This document shows, in pieces, positions 4,118-42,791 of a stretch of DNA of 45,697 bases. The notes below the pieces were generated by a model, which worked only from the letters and a program-made list of their open reading frames with translations, did not search any database and was not told the origin of the DNA. The position numbers and the translations under genes are program-made. Where the stretch lies: NCBI GenBank assembly GCA_009839975.1, contig VXOP01000113.1:1-45697 (forward strand), given 5' to 3'. Positions within the stretch are counted from its first letter, which is position 1. Every line of letters begins with the position of its first letter. The DNA comes from Candidatus Poribacteria bacterium (lineage in GTDB: Bacteria; Poribacteria; WGA-4E; WGA-3G).

Positions 4118-4906
4118 TCAACGGGATTTAATGTTACCCCATGTTGTAGTGAGTTTTTCTTCGGGTTCTACAGACAGAAACTCACCTGCTTTAACTTGAT
4201 TAATTTCGCTTTCAGATAATGCACGATTAAAAATGTAGTACTCATCCAGCAACCCTTGATACCAACGACCATTTTTGTGGTGTCCAATTCCTGCGTTCAC
4301 TCCCCATTCAGCGGATAGTTTTCCTGAACCTTTGACTGAATGCGTTTCTTCACCATCAATATAGGTCTTAGCATCACCACTATCACTATCATAAGTACCA
4401 GCGAAATGAACCCATTCACCTGCATCAATTACGGGACCCGGATTGATATTGAAAACTTCAGTATTTGTCTCATTTCGATGGAAGAAACGGAATCCACCAG
4501 GACGGATTTCCATGTGATAAAGTCCACTTTCAATTGTTGTACCAATGGCATCAAGCAGTGTTTGCGGATCCGTGGAACCGTTGTGGTTAACCCAAACAGC
4601 TAATGTGAATCCATCTACCGGACCGTTCTCAAACTCCGGACCATTCATATTAATCCATACATTGGTTTCTAAAGCGATGGCTTTTCCATAAACACCTTTT
4701 TCCCATGTAGCATTTCCCTCTACTTCCCCATCGTTACCGCTTTTTGACCCATCTTTAACCGTGTTACTTTCTTCATCAAAACTATAGTAAACGGACAATG
4801 TCGGGTCATTTAAATCAGCCTGAACTGAAAATACACAGGTCCCCAAAAATATCAATACGGTTAGATAGATGGGTAGTTTCTTAACAATATTAACATATAT
4901 ATACAT
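4118..4906 (-). CDS. Secreted LamG/concanavalin-like domain protein with C-terminal KLTTTWGNIKSR
   Basis: Signal peptide; LamG pattern (YSFDE...DGSKSGNDGEV...GKAIALE...FTLAVWVN...WVHFAGTYD...TYIDGEE...GIGHHKNGRWYQGLLDEYYIFNRALSESEI). Confidence 0.85.
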   Translation of the reverse strand: MYIYVNIVKKLPIYLTVLIFLGTCVFSVQADLNDPTLSVYYSFDEESNTVKDGSKSGNDGEVEGNATWEKGVYGKAIALETNVWINMNGPEFENGPVDGFTLAVWVNHNGSTDPQTLLDAIGTTIESGLYHMEIRPGGFRFFHRNETNTEVFNINPGPVIDAGEWVHFAGTYDSDSGDAKTYIDGEETHSVKGSGKLSAEWGVNAGIGHHKNGRWYQGLLDEYYIFNRALSESEINQVKAGEFLSVEPEEKLTTTWGNIKSR

Positions 4907-4928
4907 GCTCTACTCCTCTATGTGTAAC

Positions 4929-5729
4929 CTAATGGGATTTAATATTTCCCCAGGTAGTTGTGAGTTTATTTTGTGGTTCAACTGGCGTTATAAATGCCCC
5001 TTCCATAATCTGCTGTATCTCATCTGCAGACACAGCGCGTGCGAAGATGAAATAATCATCCAGCATCCCGTTAAACCATCGTCCATTCTTATGGTGTCCG
5101 ATTCCTGCAGAAACACCCCAATTAGCTGCAAGTTCACCACCTCCAACAGCACTGTGAGTTTCTTCACCATCAACATAAGTCTTTATCTCACCACTCTCCA
5201 CATCATAAGTACCAGCAAAATGAACCCATTTGTCAGCTTCTAACACTGGACCCGGGTTGATATTAAAGACAGTTGTGTTTGTATGGTTTCTATGGAAAAA
5301 ACGGAATCCACCAGTTCGAATTTCCATGTGGAATAGTCCACTACCGTGGTCTGTACCGATCGCATCAAGGAGTGTCTGAGGATCAGATGAGCCCGTATGG
5401 TTAACCCAAGTGGCTATTGTGAATCCATCATTGGGAAGATTCTTGAATTCGGGACCGTTCATGTCAATCCACGAATCGGTTTCTAACACTATCGCTTTCC
5501 CCATTACACCATCTACCCGATTGACGTTGCCGACTATGGTTCCATCATTTCCACTTAGGGAACCATCAACGACAGTTTCACCCTCTCCATCAAAGCTATA
5601 GTAGACAGAAATTGTCGGATCACTCAGGTCAGCATTGGCAGTGAATATACCAACACATAACATGGCAGCTATTACAGTCAAGATATGAAACGATCTAATA
5701 AATTCAAAACGCATTTTTTTATTCTCCAA
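4929..5729 (-). CDS. Secreted LamG domain protein, tandem paralog, C-terminal KLTTTWGNIKSH
   Basis: Strong colinear similarity to the 4118..4906 product, including N-terminal signal and C-terminal tag. Confidence 0.85.
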   Translation of the reverse strand: MENKKMRFEFIRSFHILTVIAAMLCVGIFTANADLSDPTISVYYSFDGEGETVVDGSLSGNDGTIVGNVNRVDGVMGKAIVLETDSWIDMNGPEFKNLPNDGFTIATWVNHTGSSDPQTLLDAIGTDHGSGLFHMEIRTGGFRFFHRNHTNTTVFNINPGPVLEADKWVHFAGTYDVESGEIKTYVDGEETHSAVGGGELAANWGVSAGIGHHKNGRWFNGMLDDYFIFARAVSADEIQQIMEGAFITPVEPQNKLTTTWGNIKSH

Positions 5730-5992
5730 TTATTTTAGATTTATAGTTGTAGGTTGTGAAGGTCATCCTTCGTGTTCAGTGGATAATTCCTATAATCACC
5801 TACATTGATCTTGCGACATATATTAGTCATTATACCGATTGCATTTTACAAATCTTTCTGATTTTTGTCAACAAAAAAATGTTTCATACTTTCAATCTAC
5901 ATATCATTCAATTTTCTGAAACCACTTCTATTTCATGGACATGTTCCAATAATATATGTTAACATGTAAAAAACCGATAAGGAGATAGAACA

Positions 5993-6850
5993 ATGGAACA
6001 TAGCGTTATAATTCGCTGCATGATTATATGTATCCTCTTTTCCGCATTGATGATCTTACCAATATATGCAACAGATGTGACTGTTGGATTTTTGGCAGGA
6101 AGTAATCAACTCGGTGAAGTAGAGGAAGCTGCTTATGATTGGGTAGAAGATACATTTCAAACGAAGATGCTCATAGCTGACAAGAGTGGTAACTTTAAAA
6201 CGAATACCGGGTCAGCGATGAAGTTAGACCAATTTGCTGTGTTATGGCTTTTCTATACAGAAACGAACACGTTGCCAGAACCCTTTCTTGAAGATGCAAC
6301 TAAAAAGAACATCCTTGATTATTTGGATGTAGGTGGTAGTGTATTCCTCTCTGCACTCGGACTTAAGTATGTTATAGATTTAGAAGTTGATGAAGGTAAC
6401 GTACGCGTCTTTCAACCACTCGGTAAAGGTCCACCTGAAATTGGGGTTATCGCAACTGATGATCATAAAGATCATCCTGTGTTTGAAGGTTTTGATACGG
6501 GTGATCCCATTTTTCTTACGAGTATGGATCAACCGGGTTTTACCGCAGATTTCATCAATTTTAAAGCAAGTCCTCCAGCGGGTAACATACTTGGCACAAA
6601 AACACGGGATGGTGGTGCAGGTGCCGGCGAACGTCCGCTTGTTGAATACGAGGTAAATGATGGCAAAATCATCACACTCGGACATCACAACGGGGTCTAT
6701 ACTGATACGAACTCTAAGGAGGGTGAAAACCTGAGAAAACTGTCTGAGAACGTGCTAAATTACCTCGGTGAGACCTCAGTTTTTTTCGCTGTTCAACCCG
6801 ATGGAAAATTGGCAACTACGTGGGGTAATCTAAAGTCTGCATTGCGATAA
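5993..6850 (+). CDS. Secreted ThuA/GATase1-like protein with C-terminal KLATTWGNLKSALR
   Basis: Signal peptide (CMIICILFSALMILPIYA); GATase-like fold cues (LDYLDVGGSVFLSALG, DHPVFEGFD, KIITLGHHNGVY); aaggagat upstream of ATG. Confidence 0.65.
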   Translation: MEHSVIIRCMIICILFSALMILPIYATDVTVGFLAGSNQLGEVEEAAYDWVEDTFQTKMLIADKSGNFKTNTGSAMKLDQFAVLWLFYTETNTLPEPFLEDATKKNILDYLDVGGSVFLSALGLKYVIDLEVDEGNVRVFQPLGKGPPEIGVIATDDHKDHPVFEGFDTGDPIFLTSMDQPGFTADFINFKASPPAGNILGTKTRDGGAGAGERPLVEYEVNDGKIITLGHHNGVYTDTNSKEGENLRKLSENVLNYLGETSVFFAVQPDGKLATTWGNLKSALR

Positions 6851-7421: not shown

Positions 7422-10400
7422 TTACATGTGTGTTTGTGAGCTCCACTTCACCAAATAGTTAGATGGCATTTCGTGGATAAACATAGATGCTACCTGTCCT
7501 CGGTCATTGAAACGATATAAAGTAGAAGATAGATATAGTTGTTCTTGTGCCCGCGTCATGCCAACATAGAACAGACGCCGTTCCTCTTCAAGTTCCGCCA
7601 ATGTTAGACTACTCCTACCTATTGGAAAATTGCCATCCTCCATTCCTATGATAAAGACAACAGGAAATTCTGTCCCTTTTGCAGCATGTAATGTCATGAG
7701 TGTGAGTTGCTCTGTTTTATTATCAAGCTCATCAAAACTGGTTAGTAGTTTCTGGTAATCTAAGAAATCGGTCAGTGTATGTCCGTGTCCCACTCTTTCA
7801 AAGTTTAGGACAAAATTCAGGAATCGCGACTTGTGTTCAATCCAATCACTGTCCTCCTTGTCAACAGGGACATCAGACTCCCTAAGCAAATTGAAGAATT
7901 CAGATACCTGTTCTTTCTCTGTCTGTTCAAAAGGTAAATCAACGGATAAGACATCATGATTGACTTTCGCATACCTTTTCGCAGCATTTAGATATGCTTT
8001 AGTTTCATGTGATATTTCCACTTCATCAATATCAGAGGTCTTAGCAAGGATACCAGCACCAATCAATGGTAAGAATTCAGTGAGTGATTTTACCTGCTGT
8101 TTCTGTGTGTCAATTCTGATGAGTTCCTTGAAGATTTTGCGGTTGACTTCTACATCCTCCTGTGCACTATGTAGACGGTTGTATCCAATTCCGAATTTTT
8201 CAGCAAGTGTCTGAATATTGCAGCGCTGTCTTGGGAAGAGCCTTCGTGCAGTCACAAGCGTGTCATAATGCGGATTCGGCAATCCTCGGTTCAGGTGTTC
8301 TTGAAGGACACGTTCAAGAATAGGGTTATCATAATTCACGACATTGTGTCCGATAAGAATACGATCTTGAATGAAACTGCACAATTCGGGAAGCACCATT
8401 TCAATACTCGGGCAATCTTTAACGGTCTCTTCATTTATGTCGTGAATACGAGTAGTTTCTTTCGGTATATATCCACCTGGGGGTCTTACTAATCTATAGT
8501 ACCGTTCTATTCCATTCCCAACAGCATTGAGTCGCTGTGCGGCTATCTCAACGATATTCGCATATCTCGTATCAACCCCTGTCGTTTCCAAGTCGTAAAT
8601 GACCATATCTGACATGTTTGGTGATTCAAAACGACTTAATAGACGTTGACATAGTCTAAGGGCAGCGATGCTGCGAATACCATCAGATTGAAGTTGAAGT
8701 GTACTGATACCTTCTGCAGCGGTTGTTCCGATTATTATAATGCGCGAATCTGCTGATGTTTCGTCCAACTCACCGAAATCTCCAATTAGGAGATTGATTC
8801 CATTTTCGTTCAGATGCGGTTTACTTCTGTCCATATCTTTCGGTAATAGTTGTATCTCTACATTCTTATTCAGATAGGTTTTCAAGGTCTGATGTATGAT
8901 GCTTGCTGCACAGTATTCATCTACTCCGTAGTTTGCAGTAATCTTAATGGGTTCATCGCGATCAAGCGCGCTATACAGTACATCCTGTATAAGGGAAACA
9001 TTCTGCATTTCGGGTTGTCTTTCAATTGTTCCCAGTTCCTTTTGACGGTATGGTGACCGAAAACTATCCAATGTTGCAAATAACTTCTGGGCAATTTTAT
9101 CTATCTTCTCCTCTTTTATCTCCTCAGATAGAGCCTCAAGTCGATCCCAAAATTGCCGAATGTTGCGTCGTGTAAATGGACCAACATCTTCTGGATACGC
9201 ATCAATGTTCTTTAAGAGTTCTGCTAAAGTTATTTCCTTGCGGATCGCTAACCACTTGAGTCGAACCCAGGTTAGATCGTCAATCCGTTTTTCAGGAAAG
9301 TTGATTGCATTCTCAAGGTCTTGTGGGAGGTGCCACTGAATGAAACGGAGGTAGGAGAAGATACCTTTACTGATTTCTTCATCAAACGAATTCGTAGGTC
9401 GGATACGTTGAAATTTTATCTTCTGCCTGAGTAATTCCTCTGCTAAAACATCCGCAAGTTTGTGCGTCCGGTAGAAGATGGCGATATCGCGATAGGAGAC
9501 ACCCCGGTGTCTAATCAGATTTCGGATGATTTCTATAATATATCGTGCTTCCTCGGTAGCTGTACTAAAGGTATAGTGATATATATTCCATCCCACATCT
9601 CTGTGTGTTTTAAGTGTGTGCTGTTTCTGTCGTTCCGTATTCCTACCGATCACTTCTTCTGCAGCACGTAGTATCCTCTCACTACACCGATAATGCTCAT
9701 CCAATTCAACGACTTCAGGTGAGAAGTCCTCTATAAAATGCTCAATATATTGCGGATTAGACCCGCGCCAACTGTAAATTGATTGATCAGCATCCGCAAC
9801 TACCATTAGGTTGTTATTTGGTGGTGCAGTGATGAGTTGAAGTAACGCATACTGGACACTATTCACATCGTGGTACTCATCCACAAGTATATAAGAGATG
9901 TTTTTGTGGTAATCAGTTTGTATTTCTGAAACTTCTCTGAAAAGTTCAACCGTCTTAAGTAGCAGATCATCAAAGTCAAGTGCATTGTATTCTGTGAGTT
10001 TGTCCTGATAGGCACTGATTGCCCGCTTTATGTTTTCTTCCGCATCAGGATCATCTATTTCTGCGATGACATCGGGATCAATATACAAGTCATCCGATAC
10101 GTTTTTTAGCTTATCCCGAATTAATTGTTTACCCTCACTGATGATATTTCGCAGCCGCCATGAAGGGTAGATGCGTGAGTTCAGATTCAATTCCCGTACC
10201 ACCTCTTCCAAGATTTCGTCTTGGATTTCTTGATCAAAGATAGCGAAGTTCTCACTGAGACCTATCTGTTGTGCATGTTTTCGTAGTACTCTTACGCAGA
10301 ATGCATGAAAGGTGCTGACCTTTATATCGGAACCGTGTGGTTCACCGATCTCTTTGTTAACCCGTTCTCGCATCTCTTCGGCAGCTTTATTCGTGAAAGT

Positions 10401-10571
10401 GATAGCAAGGATGTTGTAAGGTTTGATTCTGTGTTCCCGAATTAAATACCCGATGCGATGTGTGATGACTTTCGTTTTACCGGTACCTGGACCCGCAATA
10501 ACGAGTATCGGTCCGTCTTTATGTATGACTGCTTCAGTCTGTTTTTCATTTAAGCTGTGTAAAATGTTCAT
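7422..10571 (-). CDS. UvrD/PcrA-like helicase with internal DnaQ-like (DEDDh) 3'-5' exonuclease domain
   Basis: Walker A GPGTGKT, VDEYHD, QSIYSWRG, TLHAAKGTEFPVVFIIG, EEERRLFYVGMTRA. Internal exonuclease YDLETTG...GHNVVNYDN...LHSAQED. The ORF extends to 10661 but MNILHSLNEKQTEAV at 10571 looks like the true start. Confidence 0.9.
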   Translation of the reverse strand: MNILHSLNEKQTEAVIHKDGPILVIAGPGTGKTKVITHRIGYLIREHRIKPYNILAITFTNKAAEEMRERVNKEIGEPHGSDIKVSTFHAFCVRVLRKHAQQIGLSENFAIFDQEIQDEILEEVVRELNLNSRIYPSWRLRNIISEGKQLIRDKLKNVSDDLYIDPDVIAEIDDPDAEENIKRAISAYQDKLTEYNALDFDDLLLKTVELFREVSEIQTDYHKNISYILVDEYHDVNSVQYALLQLITAPPNNNLMVVADADQSIYSWRGSNPQYIEHFIEDFSPEVVELDEHYRCSERILRAAEEVIGRNTERQKQHTLKTHRDVGWNIYHYTFSTATEEARYIIEIIRNLIRHRGVSYRDIAIFYRTHKLADVLAEELLRQKIKFQRIRPTNSFDEEISKGIFSYLRFIQWHLPQDLENAINFPEKRIDDLTWVRLKWLAIRKEITLAELLKNIDAYPEDVGPFTRRNIRQFWDRLEALSEEIKEEKIDKIAQKLFATLDSFRSPYRQKELGTIERQPEMQNVSLIQDVLYSALDRDEPIKITANYGVDEYCAASIIHQTLKTYLNKNVEIQLLPKDMDRSKPHLNENGINLLIGDFGELDETSADSRIIIIGTTAAEGISTLQLQSDGIRSIAALRLCQRLLSRFESPNMSDMVIYDLETTGVDTRYANIVEIAAQRLNAVGNGIERYYRLVRPPGGYIPKETTRIHDINEETVKDCPSIEMVLPELCSFIQDRILIGHNVVNYDNPILERVLQEHLNRGLPNPHYDTLVTARRLFPRQRCNIQTLAEKFGIGYNRLHSAQEDVEVNRKIFKELIRIDTQKQQVKSLTEFLPLIGAGILAKTSDIDEVEISHETKAYLNAAKRYAKVNHDVLSVDLPFEQTEKEQVSEFFNLLRESDVPVDKEDSDWIEHKSRFLNFVLNFERVGHGHTLTDFLDYQKLLTSFDELDNKTEQLTLMTLHAAKGTEFPVVFIIGMEDGNFPIGRSSLTLAELEEERRLFYVGMTRAQEQLYLSSTLYRFNDRGQVASMFIHEMPSNYLVKWSSQTHM

Positions 10572-10741
10572 TTCTCGTCTTCTGTTTCTTAAGAAATTAG
10601 TGTGGTGTTTTTCAATAAATTTTTGGAAATAAAAGTGGTTGACGCAAATTCTATAACGCAAAAGAAAGTATATAACAAATTACCCAAAAATACAAGGCCC
10701 AAAAAAATGAGGAATTTGCGTATTTATCAGTACAATTCCTG

Positions 10742-18902: not shown

Positions 18903-19043
18903 GATATGAAGTGTGTAAATATTTTCAAATGTCACTATAAATACAGTTTCAAGTAGAAGAATTATGCGACCGTTTTCTATCCTACTCGCGTCATTATAGT
19001 TGAAACCACATGAATGTAATCTTTTCTTTTATTGAGGTGTCTG

Positions 19044-21773
19044 ATGAAACATAATGATGTTGACCTTATCCGCCGTATACGTGAGGGTGATGATTCTGCT
19101 TTTACACATCTTGTGGAAGAATATCAGAAGCAGGTTCACGCACTCGCTTGGAAAATCATAGGCGATTTCCATATCGCTGAAGAGATAGCACAGGATACCT
19201 TCCTTAAAGTCTATCAGAAACTGGATACTTTGAAGAATCCGCAACAGTTCGCTGGATGGTTATATGTGATTACTTCACGTTTGTGTTACAGATGGATACG
19301 AAAGAATCGTAAGCAAGCAGAATTACTTGATGATGCAGAAATTGGCATGTTGGAAGAAACTGCCTATTCCAAGTATGTTGCGGATGAAAACACAAAAGTT
19401 AGAATAGAGGCACAACGCAAGGTAGTTCATAAACTACTTTCAAAACTACAGGAGAGTGAACGCACGGTGATGGTTCTGCATTATTTTAGTGAAATGACCT
19501 GTGAAGAAATAAGTCGCTTTTTAGGCGTATCTACAAGTGCGATCAAAAGCCGTCTTAGTCGTGCAAGACAACGTCTCAAGAAGGAAGAACCGATGATTCG
19601 AGAGGCACTTAGCAATTTTCAAATTACGCCAAACTTAACTGAGAACATAATCAGACAAATTGAACATCTCAATCCCGCCGCACCATCAGCAGGCAATCCT
19701 ATTCTACCTTGGGCGTTAGCTGCTTCCAGTTTTATCATAGTTGTGTTGATTCTTGGAATGGGAAGTAGAAAATTAGCGCGATACCAGCAACCCTACAGTT
19801 TGAATTTGGAGGCTGCCATGGCAGTAGAACTAATTGACACGCAAATTGTCAGGGATATTGATGAAAAACCGGAGGTTAGGACCTTGCAAGGTAATAGATC
19901 AGATAAAACCGGTACAGATAACAATACCGGCCAGGAATCAAATCAGGCTTTCAACGATCAAGTGGACTATACACAATGGGGATTACCTGATGGCGCAAAA
20001 GCACGTATCGGTAAAGGTTGGTTAACAGGTAATATGGCATTCTCACCAGATGGTAGACGGCTTGCAGTTGCAGGTATCATCGGTACTTGGATATATGATG
20101 CGCGTCCTGGAAAAGTAAAAGAACTCGATCTCTTAGCAGGTCACACTGATAGAGTCCGATATGTATCATTTTCTCCGGATGGAAATAGAATCGCGAGTGC
20201 AAGTAACGATATGACGGTACGTTTATATGAGGTAGCCACAGGAGAGCACATTGCAACATTTGAGGGACATACAGGACCAGTTGGTCGCTTAGCGTTTTCA
20301 CCGGATGGAGATACTGTCGCTACTGGCAGTTCAGACCACACAGTGATGTTATGGGATGCATACACAGGAAAACATAAGAAAACACTAAAAGGACATTCAG
20401 ATTGGGTTAGTTACGTAGCATATTCCTCTGATGGAAAAACAATTGCCACTGGTAGTGGAGATAAGACGACACGTCTGTGGGACGCACACACAGGAGAACA
20501 TAAAACAACACTGAAAGGACATTCTGAGACGGTAGATATCATAGCATTATCTCCTGATGGAAAGACAATTGCTACCGGAAGTGAAAACAAGACTGTCTGG
20601 TTGTGGGACATCCAAACAGGAAACCATATTATCACCCTCAAGGGACATACAGGTGCAGTCAAGACTGTTTTGTATTCTTCAGATGGCGAGACAATTGCTA
20701 CCGGAAGCTCAGACAATTCAACCCGTCTCTGGGACGCAAAAACAGGAAAACAATTACACAAGGCTATACTTGGTGATCAAAAGGCGTCGATCTTTTCCAT
20801 AGCATTTTCTCCAGATGGGAAGACTATTGCTACTCGAAATGATTTTAATGTGCGATTATGGGATGTCCATACCGGGCAACAGAGAGACGTAATTACAGGA
20901 CATATAAGATCGGGACTTGAAGGTATAACCTTTTCTCCGGATGGGAAGACAATCGCCTTCGGAGATAATGAACTGAAAGCACAGGTGTGGGACGTGAACA
21001 CAACACAGCCGAAAATGGTTCTTTCAGGTCATACTGGACATGTCAGAAGTGTAGCTTTTTCACCAGATGGAAAAACTATCGCTACGAGTAGTTATGACAA
21101 AACAGCAAGAATATGGGATGTTAACACCGGAAATATGATCAATACACTTACTGGTCATACGAAATATGTTAACGCAATCGCTTATTCACCGGATGGAAAG
21201 ACACTCGCCACAGGCAGTGATGATAAAACTGTACGACTGTGGGACGCAAAAACAGGCGATCACATATCTTCACTAACAGATCTTGGAAATCCTGTTTGGG
21301 ATCTTGTCTATGCCCCAGATGGAAACACTATCGCGTGTGCCCTTTGGATGGGTTGTAGAGTAGAATTGTGGAATTCTCATTCACGGGAACGTATTACGAA
21401 ATTTCGTCTACGTTCAACGAAATTTAGTACACCAGCCACTTTCGTAGCTTGTTCACCTGATAGTAGGACTCTCGCCACACTTGCTGCAAAAAAATCAGTG
21501 CAATTGTGGGACTTAAACACAGGAGAAAGTATTGCTATGTTCAAAGGACATACGGATGAGGTTACGACAGCTGCTTTCTCACCTGATGGCACGCTCCTCG
21601 CAACAGGGAGTGATGACTATACAGTGCGGCTGTGGGATATTCATAATAAAACACATCTAACGACGCTACAGGGACATACATTGAGTATCCAATCGGTTGC
21701 GTTTTCACCCGATAGCAGTACACTCGCCAGTCTTAGTTATGATGGCACAATTCTATTTTGGAAAATACATTAA
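19044..21773 (+). CDS. ECF RNA polymerase sigma factor fused through a TM segment to a WD40 propeller
   Basis: Sigma region 2 (DDSAFTHLVEEYQKQVHALAWKIIGDFHIAEEIAQDTFLKVYQKL...FAGWLYVITSRLCYRWIRK), region 4 (LQESERTVMVLHYFSEMTCEEISRFLGVSTSAIKSRLSRARQRLK), TM (ILPWALAASSFIIVVLILGMG), then TQWGLPDGAKARIGKG and WD40 repeats. Confidence 0.92.
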   Translation: MKHNDVDLIRRIREGDDSAFTHLVEEYQKQVHALAWKIIGDFHIAEEIAQDTFLKVYQKLDTLKNPQQFAGWLYVITSRLCYRWIRKNRKQAELLDDAEIGMLEETAYSKYVADENTKVRIEAQRKVVHKLLSKLQESERTVMVLHYFSEMTCEEISRFLGVSTSAIKSRLSRARQRLKKEEPMIREALSNFQITPNLTENIIRQIEHLNPAAPSAGNPILPWALAASSFIIVVLILGMGSRKLARYQQPYSLNLEAAMAVELIDTQIVRDIDEKPEVRTLQGNRSDKTGTDNNTGQESNQAFNDQVDYTQWGLPDGAKARIGKGWLTGNMAFSPDGRRLAVAGIIGTWIYDARPGKVKELDLLAGHTDRVRYVSFSPDGNRIASASNDMTVRLYEVATGEHIATFEGHTGPVGRLAFSPDGDTVATGSSDHTVMLWDAYTGKHKKTLKGHSDWVSYVAYSSDGKTIATGSGDKTTRLWDAHTGEHKTTLKGHSETVDIIALSPDGKTIATGSENKTVWLWDIQTGNHIITLKGHTGAVKTVLYSSDGETIATGSSDNSTRLWDAKTGKQLHKAILGDQKASIFSIAFSPDGKTIATRNDFNVRLWDVHTGQQRDVITGHIRSGLEGITFSPDGKTIAFGDNELKAQVWDVNTTQPKMVLSGHTGHVRSVAFSPDGKTIATSSYDKTARIWDVNTGNMINTLTGHTKYVNAIAYSPDGKTLATGSDDKTVRLWDAKTGDHISSLTDLGNPVWDLVYAPDGNTIACALWMGCRVELWNSHSRERITKFRLRSTKFSTPATFVACSPDSRTLATLAAKKSVQLWDLNTGESIAMFKGHTDEVTTAAFSPDGTLLATGSDDYTVRLWDIHNKTHLTTLQGHTLSIQSVAFSPDSSTLASLSYDGTILFWKIH

Positions 21774-41584: not shown

Positions 41585-41753
41585 CAAGCATGAACTTTCA
41601 CAAGGGTGTGTAAAGTCATTGTCACCGTTTTTGTCTGAATCGTGCCAATTATATAGCTGGCGCGGAGGACACGGAAGACGCGGAAGGGTGTTTTGGGAAA
41701 GTTTAGTTCAGACAATCCACCGTACAGACGTATCAATCCGCTTTCACATCCGC

Positions 41754-42791
41754 CTAGATCGTTGTCAACTTACCTGCAGGATCAACAGCATATATACCTT
41801 CAGAATCCAAAGCCAACCCATTGATACTGTGCAAGCCTGTTACAACATCCCTAACATTCGAACCGTTAAGATTTGCTTGTTGGATTTTATGCCTATCTCT
41901 CCCATCCCGTGCTGACCAATACATCTTTCGGGTTTTTTCGTCAACAACAAGATGATTTGGTTCTTTCAATCCTGTGATAACTGTTTTAATGTGAGCTCCA
42001 TTGAAAGAAGCGCGATGAATACTGCTGCTACCTGTCCAATAAATTTTTCTTGCATCCACATCCAGACCAATGCTCAATATACGGTTATGCCAATCATCAA
42101 GGATAACTTCAACATCCGAACCATCAAGATTCATTCTCAGAATCTGTCGTATGGATAGGACCACCCAATAGAGTTTTCCCTGTTTCAAATCCAATTTCAT
42201 GTCCCAAGTGCTTGTATTTTTCATATCCTTAACATCTTCAACATCTGTCCCATCGAGGTTTGAACGTTTATATTTTCGATGCGCAACATCTACCCAATAT
42301 ATATGATTTTTCTGATTGTCCAAAGCGATGCACCGTGGTAGGAAGAGGAGTTCAGGATCTATTTCGACGGAATCTCCCCCTTCTGGGTGTATCCATCCCC
42401 GGCACACATCACCTATACAATCCTTGCCCGCGCTACCACCTTCAGGCGGTAAATGATATCCTCCGAAGATTTCTTCTATTTTGGTACCATCAGAATTTGC
42501 ACGCATTATTTTGTTATACCCAACCACTACATCTTTATATTTAGCAATATCTGCTTCTATCCAAAATATCGTGTTATTCTGGAAATCTAAAGAGATATCT
42601 TGTGCATAATCAAGACCCTTTATAACATCCTCAACATTAGACCCGTCCAGATTAGCACGGCTGATAAAACCCCATTCGGACCAATATATTTTCTTTGCGG
42701 CAGCAATCGCCGTATTCTGGATGCAAACCACCATTACCAACGTAACTATAACAGACAAGACCCATTTCTGTTTTATATTTTGATTTTGCAT
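41754..42791 (-). CDS. Secreted YWTD/LDL-receptor class B beta-propeller
   Basis: Signal peptide; repeats such as KKIYWSEWGFISRANLDGSNVEDVIKGLDYAQDISLD and RKIYWTGSSSIHRASFNGAHIKTVITGL. Ends ...AVDPAGKLTTI*. Confidence 0.88.
   Translation of the reverse strand: MQNQNIKQKWVLSVIVTLVMVVCIQNTAIAAAKKIYWSEWGFISRANLDGSNVEDVIKGLDYAQDISLDFQNNTIFWIEADIAKYKDVVVGYNKIMRANSDGTKIEEIFGGYHLPPEGGSAGKDCIGDVCRGWIHPEGGDSVEIDPELLFLPRCIALDNQKNHIYWVDVAHRKYKRSNLDGTDVEDVKDMKNTSTWDMKLDLKQGKLYWVVLSIRQILRMNLDGSDVEVILDDWHNRILSIGLDVDARKIYWTGSSSIHRASFNGAHIKTVITGLKEPNHLVVDEKTRKMYWSARDGRDRHKIQQANLNGSNVRDVVTGLHSINGLALDSEGIYAVDPAGKLTTI

Follow-up and report, generated by a model that had tools for sequence, protein, structure and literature searches.

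A short C-terminal peptide tag, carried by exported proteins of unrelated folds, is very likely a real feature, near-exclusive to the phylum Poribacteria, and has the hallmarks of a signal located at the C-terminus of exported proteins. Its C-terminal position, the export of its carriers, the diversity of their folds, its strong conservation, its near-exclusive, phylum-wide distribution and its interchange with the T9SS C-terminal domain are all established by the sequences. We read it as a short linear signal for delivery to, or fixation at, the cell surface and put the probability of this reading at about 0.6, a figure that does not apply to a T9SS step taken alone. Poribacteria are uncultured, mostly sponge-associated bacteria, known mainly from marine sponges. 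In this uncultured phylum the tag marks out a secretome whose size runs from tens to about ninety proteins per genome, and it provides a one-line rule for finding its members.

Tagged proteins of the window

The window, by which we mean the whole stretch of DNA analysed, is the 45,697-nucleotide contig VXOP01000113.1 of a Candidatus Poribacteria bacterium (GCA_009839975.1). An earlier note, made from its sequence alone, had claimed that three neighbouring ORFs share a C-terminal tag, and this held, the ends reading exactly as quoted. Exported LamG protein 1 (262 aa; 4118..4906, minus strand; ORF translation, Pfam and AlphaFold) ends in VEPEEKLTTTWGNIKSR (4121..4171, minus strand), recognized from the ORF end and the pattern match and forming a low-confidence tail outside the fold. 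Its exported paralogue, LamG protein 2 (4929..5729, minus strand), is 64% identical and ends in VEPQNKLTTTWGNIKSH (4932..4982, minus strand), again seen from the ORF end and a pattern match. The third carrier is an exported ThuA/GATase-like protein of 285 aa with Pfam DUF4960 (5993..6850, plus strand), whose tag VQPDGKLATTWGNLKSALR (6791..6847, plus strand) was delimited by homologue reading and alignment. That this protein has a different, ThuA/GATase-like fold and lies on the opposite strand had also been claimed and was borne out by AlphaFold and Foldseek: the best Foldseek match of its model is 1t0b (E 3.9e-8), and the model of LamG protein 1 is a jelly roll matching jelly-roll lectin domains.

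A further claim, that a propeller at 41754 carries a damaged tag, held as well. This exported YWTD (LDL-receptor class B) propeller of 345 aa (41754..42791, minus strand) has a real tag (41736..41786, minus strand) in which the Trp codon is replaced by a TAG stop; read past the stop, the ORF gives VDPAGKLTTI-stop-ADVKAD-stop in one frame. Since its closest homologue ends in the intact KLTTVWADVKAD, the tag was lost recently by a point change, or the stop is a sequencing error.

Consensus and position of the tag

The consensus of the tag is V-[E/D]-[P/A]-x-[G/D]-K-L-[T/A/S]-T-T-W-[G/A]-x-[L/I/V]-K, usually followed by one to six mostly basic or polar residues. Searched as an exact DNA pattern, KLxTTWG has 43 matches in the genome to which the window belongs, as against none for the reversed pattern, and the form TTW, G/A-type residue, x, hydrophobic residue, K has 56 matches against one reversed control. 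A relaxed core suggested by distant homologues (K, hydrophobic, any three residues, W, G/A, any residue, hydrophobic, K) yields 93 matches against one. A pattern search confined to the window and allowing two mismatches was not significant alone, and the significance of the tag is based on exact matches and on the whole genome rather than on the window. Synonymous codons are used freely within the motif, both conserved threonines being encoded by all four ACN codons, and selection on the tag therefore acts on the peptide and not on the DNA.

In complete matches the motif lies 0–12 residues from the C-terminus, mostly with one to six residues after it. The exceptions are two proteins in which the tag directly precedes a T9SS type A domain and two chance matches outside the phylum. 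The tag is not covered by any Pfam model, nor by any NCBIfam model in a scan of 145 tagged proteins, and a literature search for the motif returned nothing relevant.

Export and folds of the carriers

Three outcomes had been named in the earlier note as refuting a C-terminal signal, namely a motif limited to LamG proteins, equal occurrence on cytoplasmic proteins, and a motif that is merely the last strand of a known domain; none of them was found. A signal-peptide score was passed by 140 of the 147 complete tagged ORFs (~95%) versus 240 of 608 neighbouring ORFs (39%; Fisher p = 2e-39). This score is a crude in-house hydrophobicity rule and not SignalP; among the seven tagged ORFs that failed it, a signal peptide can be seen in three or more, and some others look truncated. 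The cleavage sites resemble those of signal peptidase I, being A-x-A-like in 142 of 145 proteins, with a lipobox in two of the 145.

Laminin_G_3 was matched in Pfam by 92 of the 145 tagged proteins and the 3-keto-disaccharide hydrolase family, DUF1080 being among the carrier folds, by nine, while the remainder belong to F5/8, CBM9, CBM4_9, HmuY, PD40 propeller, ankyrin, DUF4960 and other families or to no Pfam family. Tagged proteins are small (median 263 aa), and 49 of 51 adjacent tagged pairs are arranged in tandem on the same strand. At one locus (L302, G000:C112) four tandem tagged paralogues occur, all with the tag variant KL[AS]VSWAQMK.

As to the third outcome, AlphaFold predicts the LamG fold to end near residue 240, with pLDDT above 90 up to about that point and below 50 for most of the tag; in the model of the ThuA-like protein, the tag is a separate low-confidence helix. 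The tag is thus placed by the models outside the folded domain, and its interpretation as the last strand or helix of the LamG domain was rejected, given also that other folds carry it. Two further candidates were discarded. Amphipathic-helix targeting is not supported by the hydrophobic moment (0.32 versus 0.28 +/- 0.13 for shuffles), and a microcompartment encapsulation peptide was rejected on account of the carriers' signal peptides and this ordinary hydrophobic moment.

Conservation and distribution

Among 30 ThuA loci that were read, the tight tag pattern was present in 28, the other two having one substitution in the TT pair. ThuA homologues retain V...K...W[GA]x[LIV][KR] at their ends even at only 25–33% body identity, and in an alignment of 42 ThuA homologues just ten residues, the Trp of the tag among them, are invariant. 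High conservation without a fixed fold is the pattern of a linear recognition peptide.

The strict pattern occurs in 84 of 85 Poribacteria genomes, the reversed control in none; the 85th genome (G009) lacks the strict pattern but holds 27 relaxed copies. In a partial scan of the species collection of GTDB, C-terminal matches came from Poribacteria with the exception of two records (L101 and L130), other non-poribacterial matches being internal or in spurious ORFs. In 201 genomes of the phylum recorded as Planctomycetota, matches remained at control or background level. The tag is therefore phylum-wide in, and near-exclusive to, Poribacteria, and its spread to other phyla was rejected, only background, chance matches and probably mis-binned contigs having been found.

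The tags of L101 and L130 themselves are genuine, and their contigs are recorded as Pseudomonadota and Planctomycetota. The genomes holding them have only about six relaxed matches each, of which only some are tag-like, and this suggests, without proving it, that both contigs are likely to be poribacterial and mis-binned.

T9SS-like machinery and interchange with the T9SS domain

T9SS-type sorting domains have been reported in Poribacteria by Kamke et al. 2014 (PMC3909097), who did not find the structural genes, the pathway remaining unresolved in their study. In the genome of the window, NPFNPETW, a motif of T9SS type A domains, has 51 matches. PorV-family profiles scored over their cut-off in all 85 genomes, with about 16 PorV-family proteins, and PorU-like C25 proteins, which carry C25 together with its propeptide domain, were matched below cut-off in all 85, with several copies per genome. 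The SprA profile matched in 84 of 85 genomes, as a single large frame, mostly of about 2150–2300 codons, and had no match in 14 control genomes. Its curated cut-off was passed in one genome only; the copy in the genome of the window reaches 164.7 bits against a cut-off of 200, with E 1.9e-48 for the whole protein. The SprA and PorU matches are remote and nearly all below curated cut-offs, and the requirement that the genomes encode a T9SS translocon and its partners (SprA, PorV, PorU) is fulfilled at the level of homologues. SprA-, PorV- and PorU-like genes are thus essentially phylum-wide, which bears on the pathway question left by Kamke et al.

The tag and the T9SS domain replace each other on homologous proteins. 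Homologous YWTD propellers end in either the tag or the T9SS domain, and none of those read has both. Residues about 11–253 of one T9SS-domain protein (L266) are matched by seven whole tagged bodies at 27–36% identity. In an FG-GAP-like family, the tag, with its Leu often Gln, directly precedes the T9SS domain; this family was found in 32 of 85 genomes, with about one protein per genome. Other T9SS-domain linkers (L195, L199 and L036), in front of the PNPFNP domain, read VESRGKKLVTLGQIKR... and resemble the tag. Stop-codon readthrough from the tag into a T9SS domain was rejected: no remnant lies downstream, and the three keyword matches in 171 are unrelated sequence.

Of seven loci sampled in a single genus, six have a tagged gene as the immediate upstream neighbour of the SprA-like gene, in the same orientation, and outside that genus a tagged gene is mostly not next to it; this synteny, being confined to one genus, may reflect a single event. 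Around two PorV genes inspected in the genome of the window, nothing beyond chance distance was seen.

Comparison with known systems

The features tested place the tag outside the PEP-CTERM, LPXTG and TIGR04183 families. Like the tag, the T9SS type A domain (TIGR04183 / FlgD-like Ig domain) sits at the C-terminus of proteins with signal peptides and unrelated folds, is present in the same genomes and interchanges with the tag on homologous bodies. It has been solved in Bacteroidota as a folded beta-sandwich (PMC11285876) and comprises about 90 residues in the proteins studied here, whereas the tag has about 17, is unfolded in models and shares no common motif with it; TIGR04183 was not listed for the 145 tagged proteins in the NCBIfam scan (E up to 0.01).

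PEP-CTERM/exosortase and other short -CTERM systems likewise have a short stretch of homology at the C-terminus of many exported, otherwise unrelated proteins in one genome. Their motif is followed by a transmembrane helix and a basic tail, while the 0–12 residues after the tag motif include no hydrophobic segment, and a signal of this type was rejected. The absence of a transmembrane helix had been claimed in the earlier note and held; of its two analogies, that to T9SS is better supported than that to PEP-CTERM. An LPXTG-type sortase signal, which needs an LPXTG-like motif, a transmembrane helix and a basic tail, was rejected by the motif profile of the tag. Dockerins and docking peptides resemble the tag in being conserved flexible tails common to carbohydrate-binding modules; the tag differs in having no calcium-loop repeat, no cohesin partner that we could find, and a far shorter length.

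Proposed role and rival explanations

The idea of a short C-terminal sorting, anchoring or processing signal put forward in the earlier note is supported by these data, while which of these roles it has, and with which partner, remain inference. In our model, the signal peptide would take a tagged protein through the inner membrane (Sec), the tag would stay flexible until bound, and a common periplasmic or outer-membrane receptor would recognize it, bringing the small protein to the cell surface or fixing it there. For this receptor the T9SS-like machinery, i.e. the SprA-like translocon, the PorV family and the PorU-like C25 proteins, is the most plausible candidate, and the tag would then stand in, in compact form, for the T9SS type A domain of roughly 90 residues. 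That a receptor recognizes the tag, that its carriers are at the surface, that T9SS is involved and that the outer membrane is crossed through SprA are all inferences, there being no data on receptor, localisation or processing.

That a T9SS-like machine reads the tag is the leading specific mechanism, an inference against which we nevertheless consider the odds to lie. The tag has no visible similarity to motifs of T9SS C-terminal domains, a short T9SS signal is to our knowledge not known, and the tag abutting a T9SS domain is essentially a matter of one family in 32 of 85 genomes, in which its Leu is often Gln. Co-occurrence of the tag with T9SS-like genes cannot discriminate because both are phylum-wide. 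A bolder version can be regarded as no more than a possibility: the ~17 residues of the tag would by themselves direct small proteins to export through a T9SS-like translocon, in place of the C-terminal domain of roughly 90 residues, and would be recognized by specialised proteins within the expanded PorV family of Poribacteria. If the tag did prove to be a T9SS signal, a short peptide could do the work of a folded domain.

Several other explanations have to be weighed against a surface signal. The tag could conceivably be a docking peptide, by which small modules assemble on a common surface or extracellular scaffold in dockerin–cohesin style, without any role in transport. The carriers fit this, being mostly single-domain binding modules (LamG, CBM9, CBM4_9, F5/8, DUF1080) of small size (median 263 aa) whose genes often lie in tandem on one strand (49 of 51 adjacent pairs), and so does a flexible conserved tail; however, a scaffold partner was not identified, and docking alone does not explain the interchange of tag and T9SS domain on homologous bodies. 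Doubtful, in our view, is a processing signal at which a dedicated protease or transpeptidase cuts or modifies the protein, for instance to attach it to lipid or polysaccharide. Several PorU-like C25 proteins per genome are available for such a step, and in the FG-GAP-like two-module family removal of the T9SS domain would make the tag the new C-terminus, but the exosortase/sortase layout is absent, as no hydrophobic segment follows the tag, and no dedicated enzyme was seen beside the tag gene arrays.

We find little to recommend the tag as an evolutionary stub, i.e. what remains of the linker after loss of a T9SS C-terminal domain, without a function of its own. It does directly precede the T9SS domain in one family, and some other T9SS-domain linkers look alike (VESRGKKLVTLGQIKR). 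Against this, most of the phylum has the tag in tens of copies per genome and keeps it at 25–33% body identity, both modules occur together in 32 of 85 genomes only, in about one protein each, and no T9SS-domain remnant lies downstream of the stops. A mobile or recombining 3' DNA cassette, as opposed to a protein signal, would account for the common tandem tagged paralogues and is practically ruled out by the free synonymous codons within the motif, the strict reading frame and the C-terminal position.

Other ORFs of the window

Two further ORFs were noted by eye. The 913-aa ORF at 19032-21773 (plus strand) appears to combine an ECF-type sigma factor N-terminus, a hydrophobic segment and a WD40 propeller, and adjoins two exported WD40 proteins. 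A UvrD/PcrA-like helicase ORF (7422-10661, minus strand) contains an apparent inserted segment of a DEDD-type exonuclease (DLETTG...).
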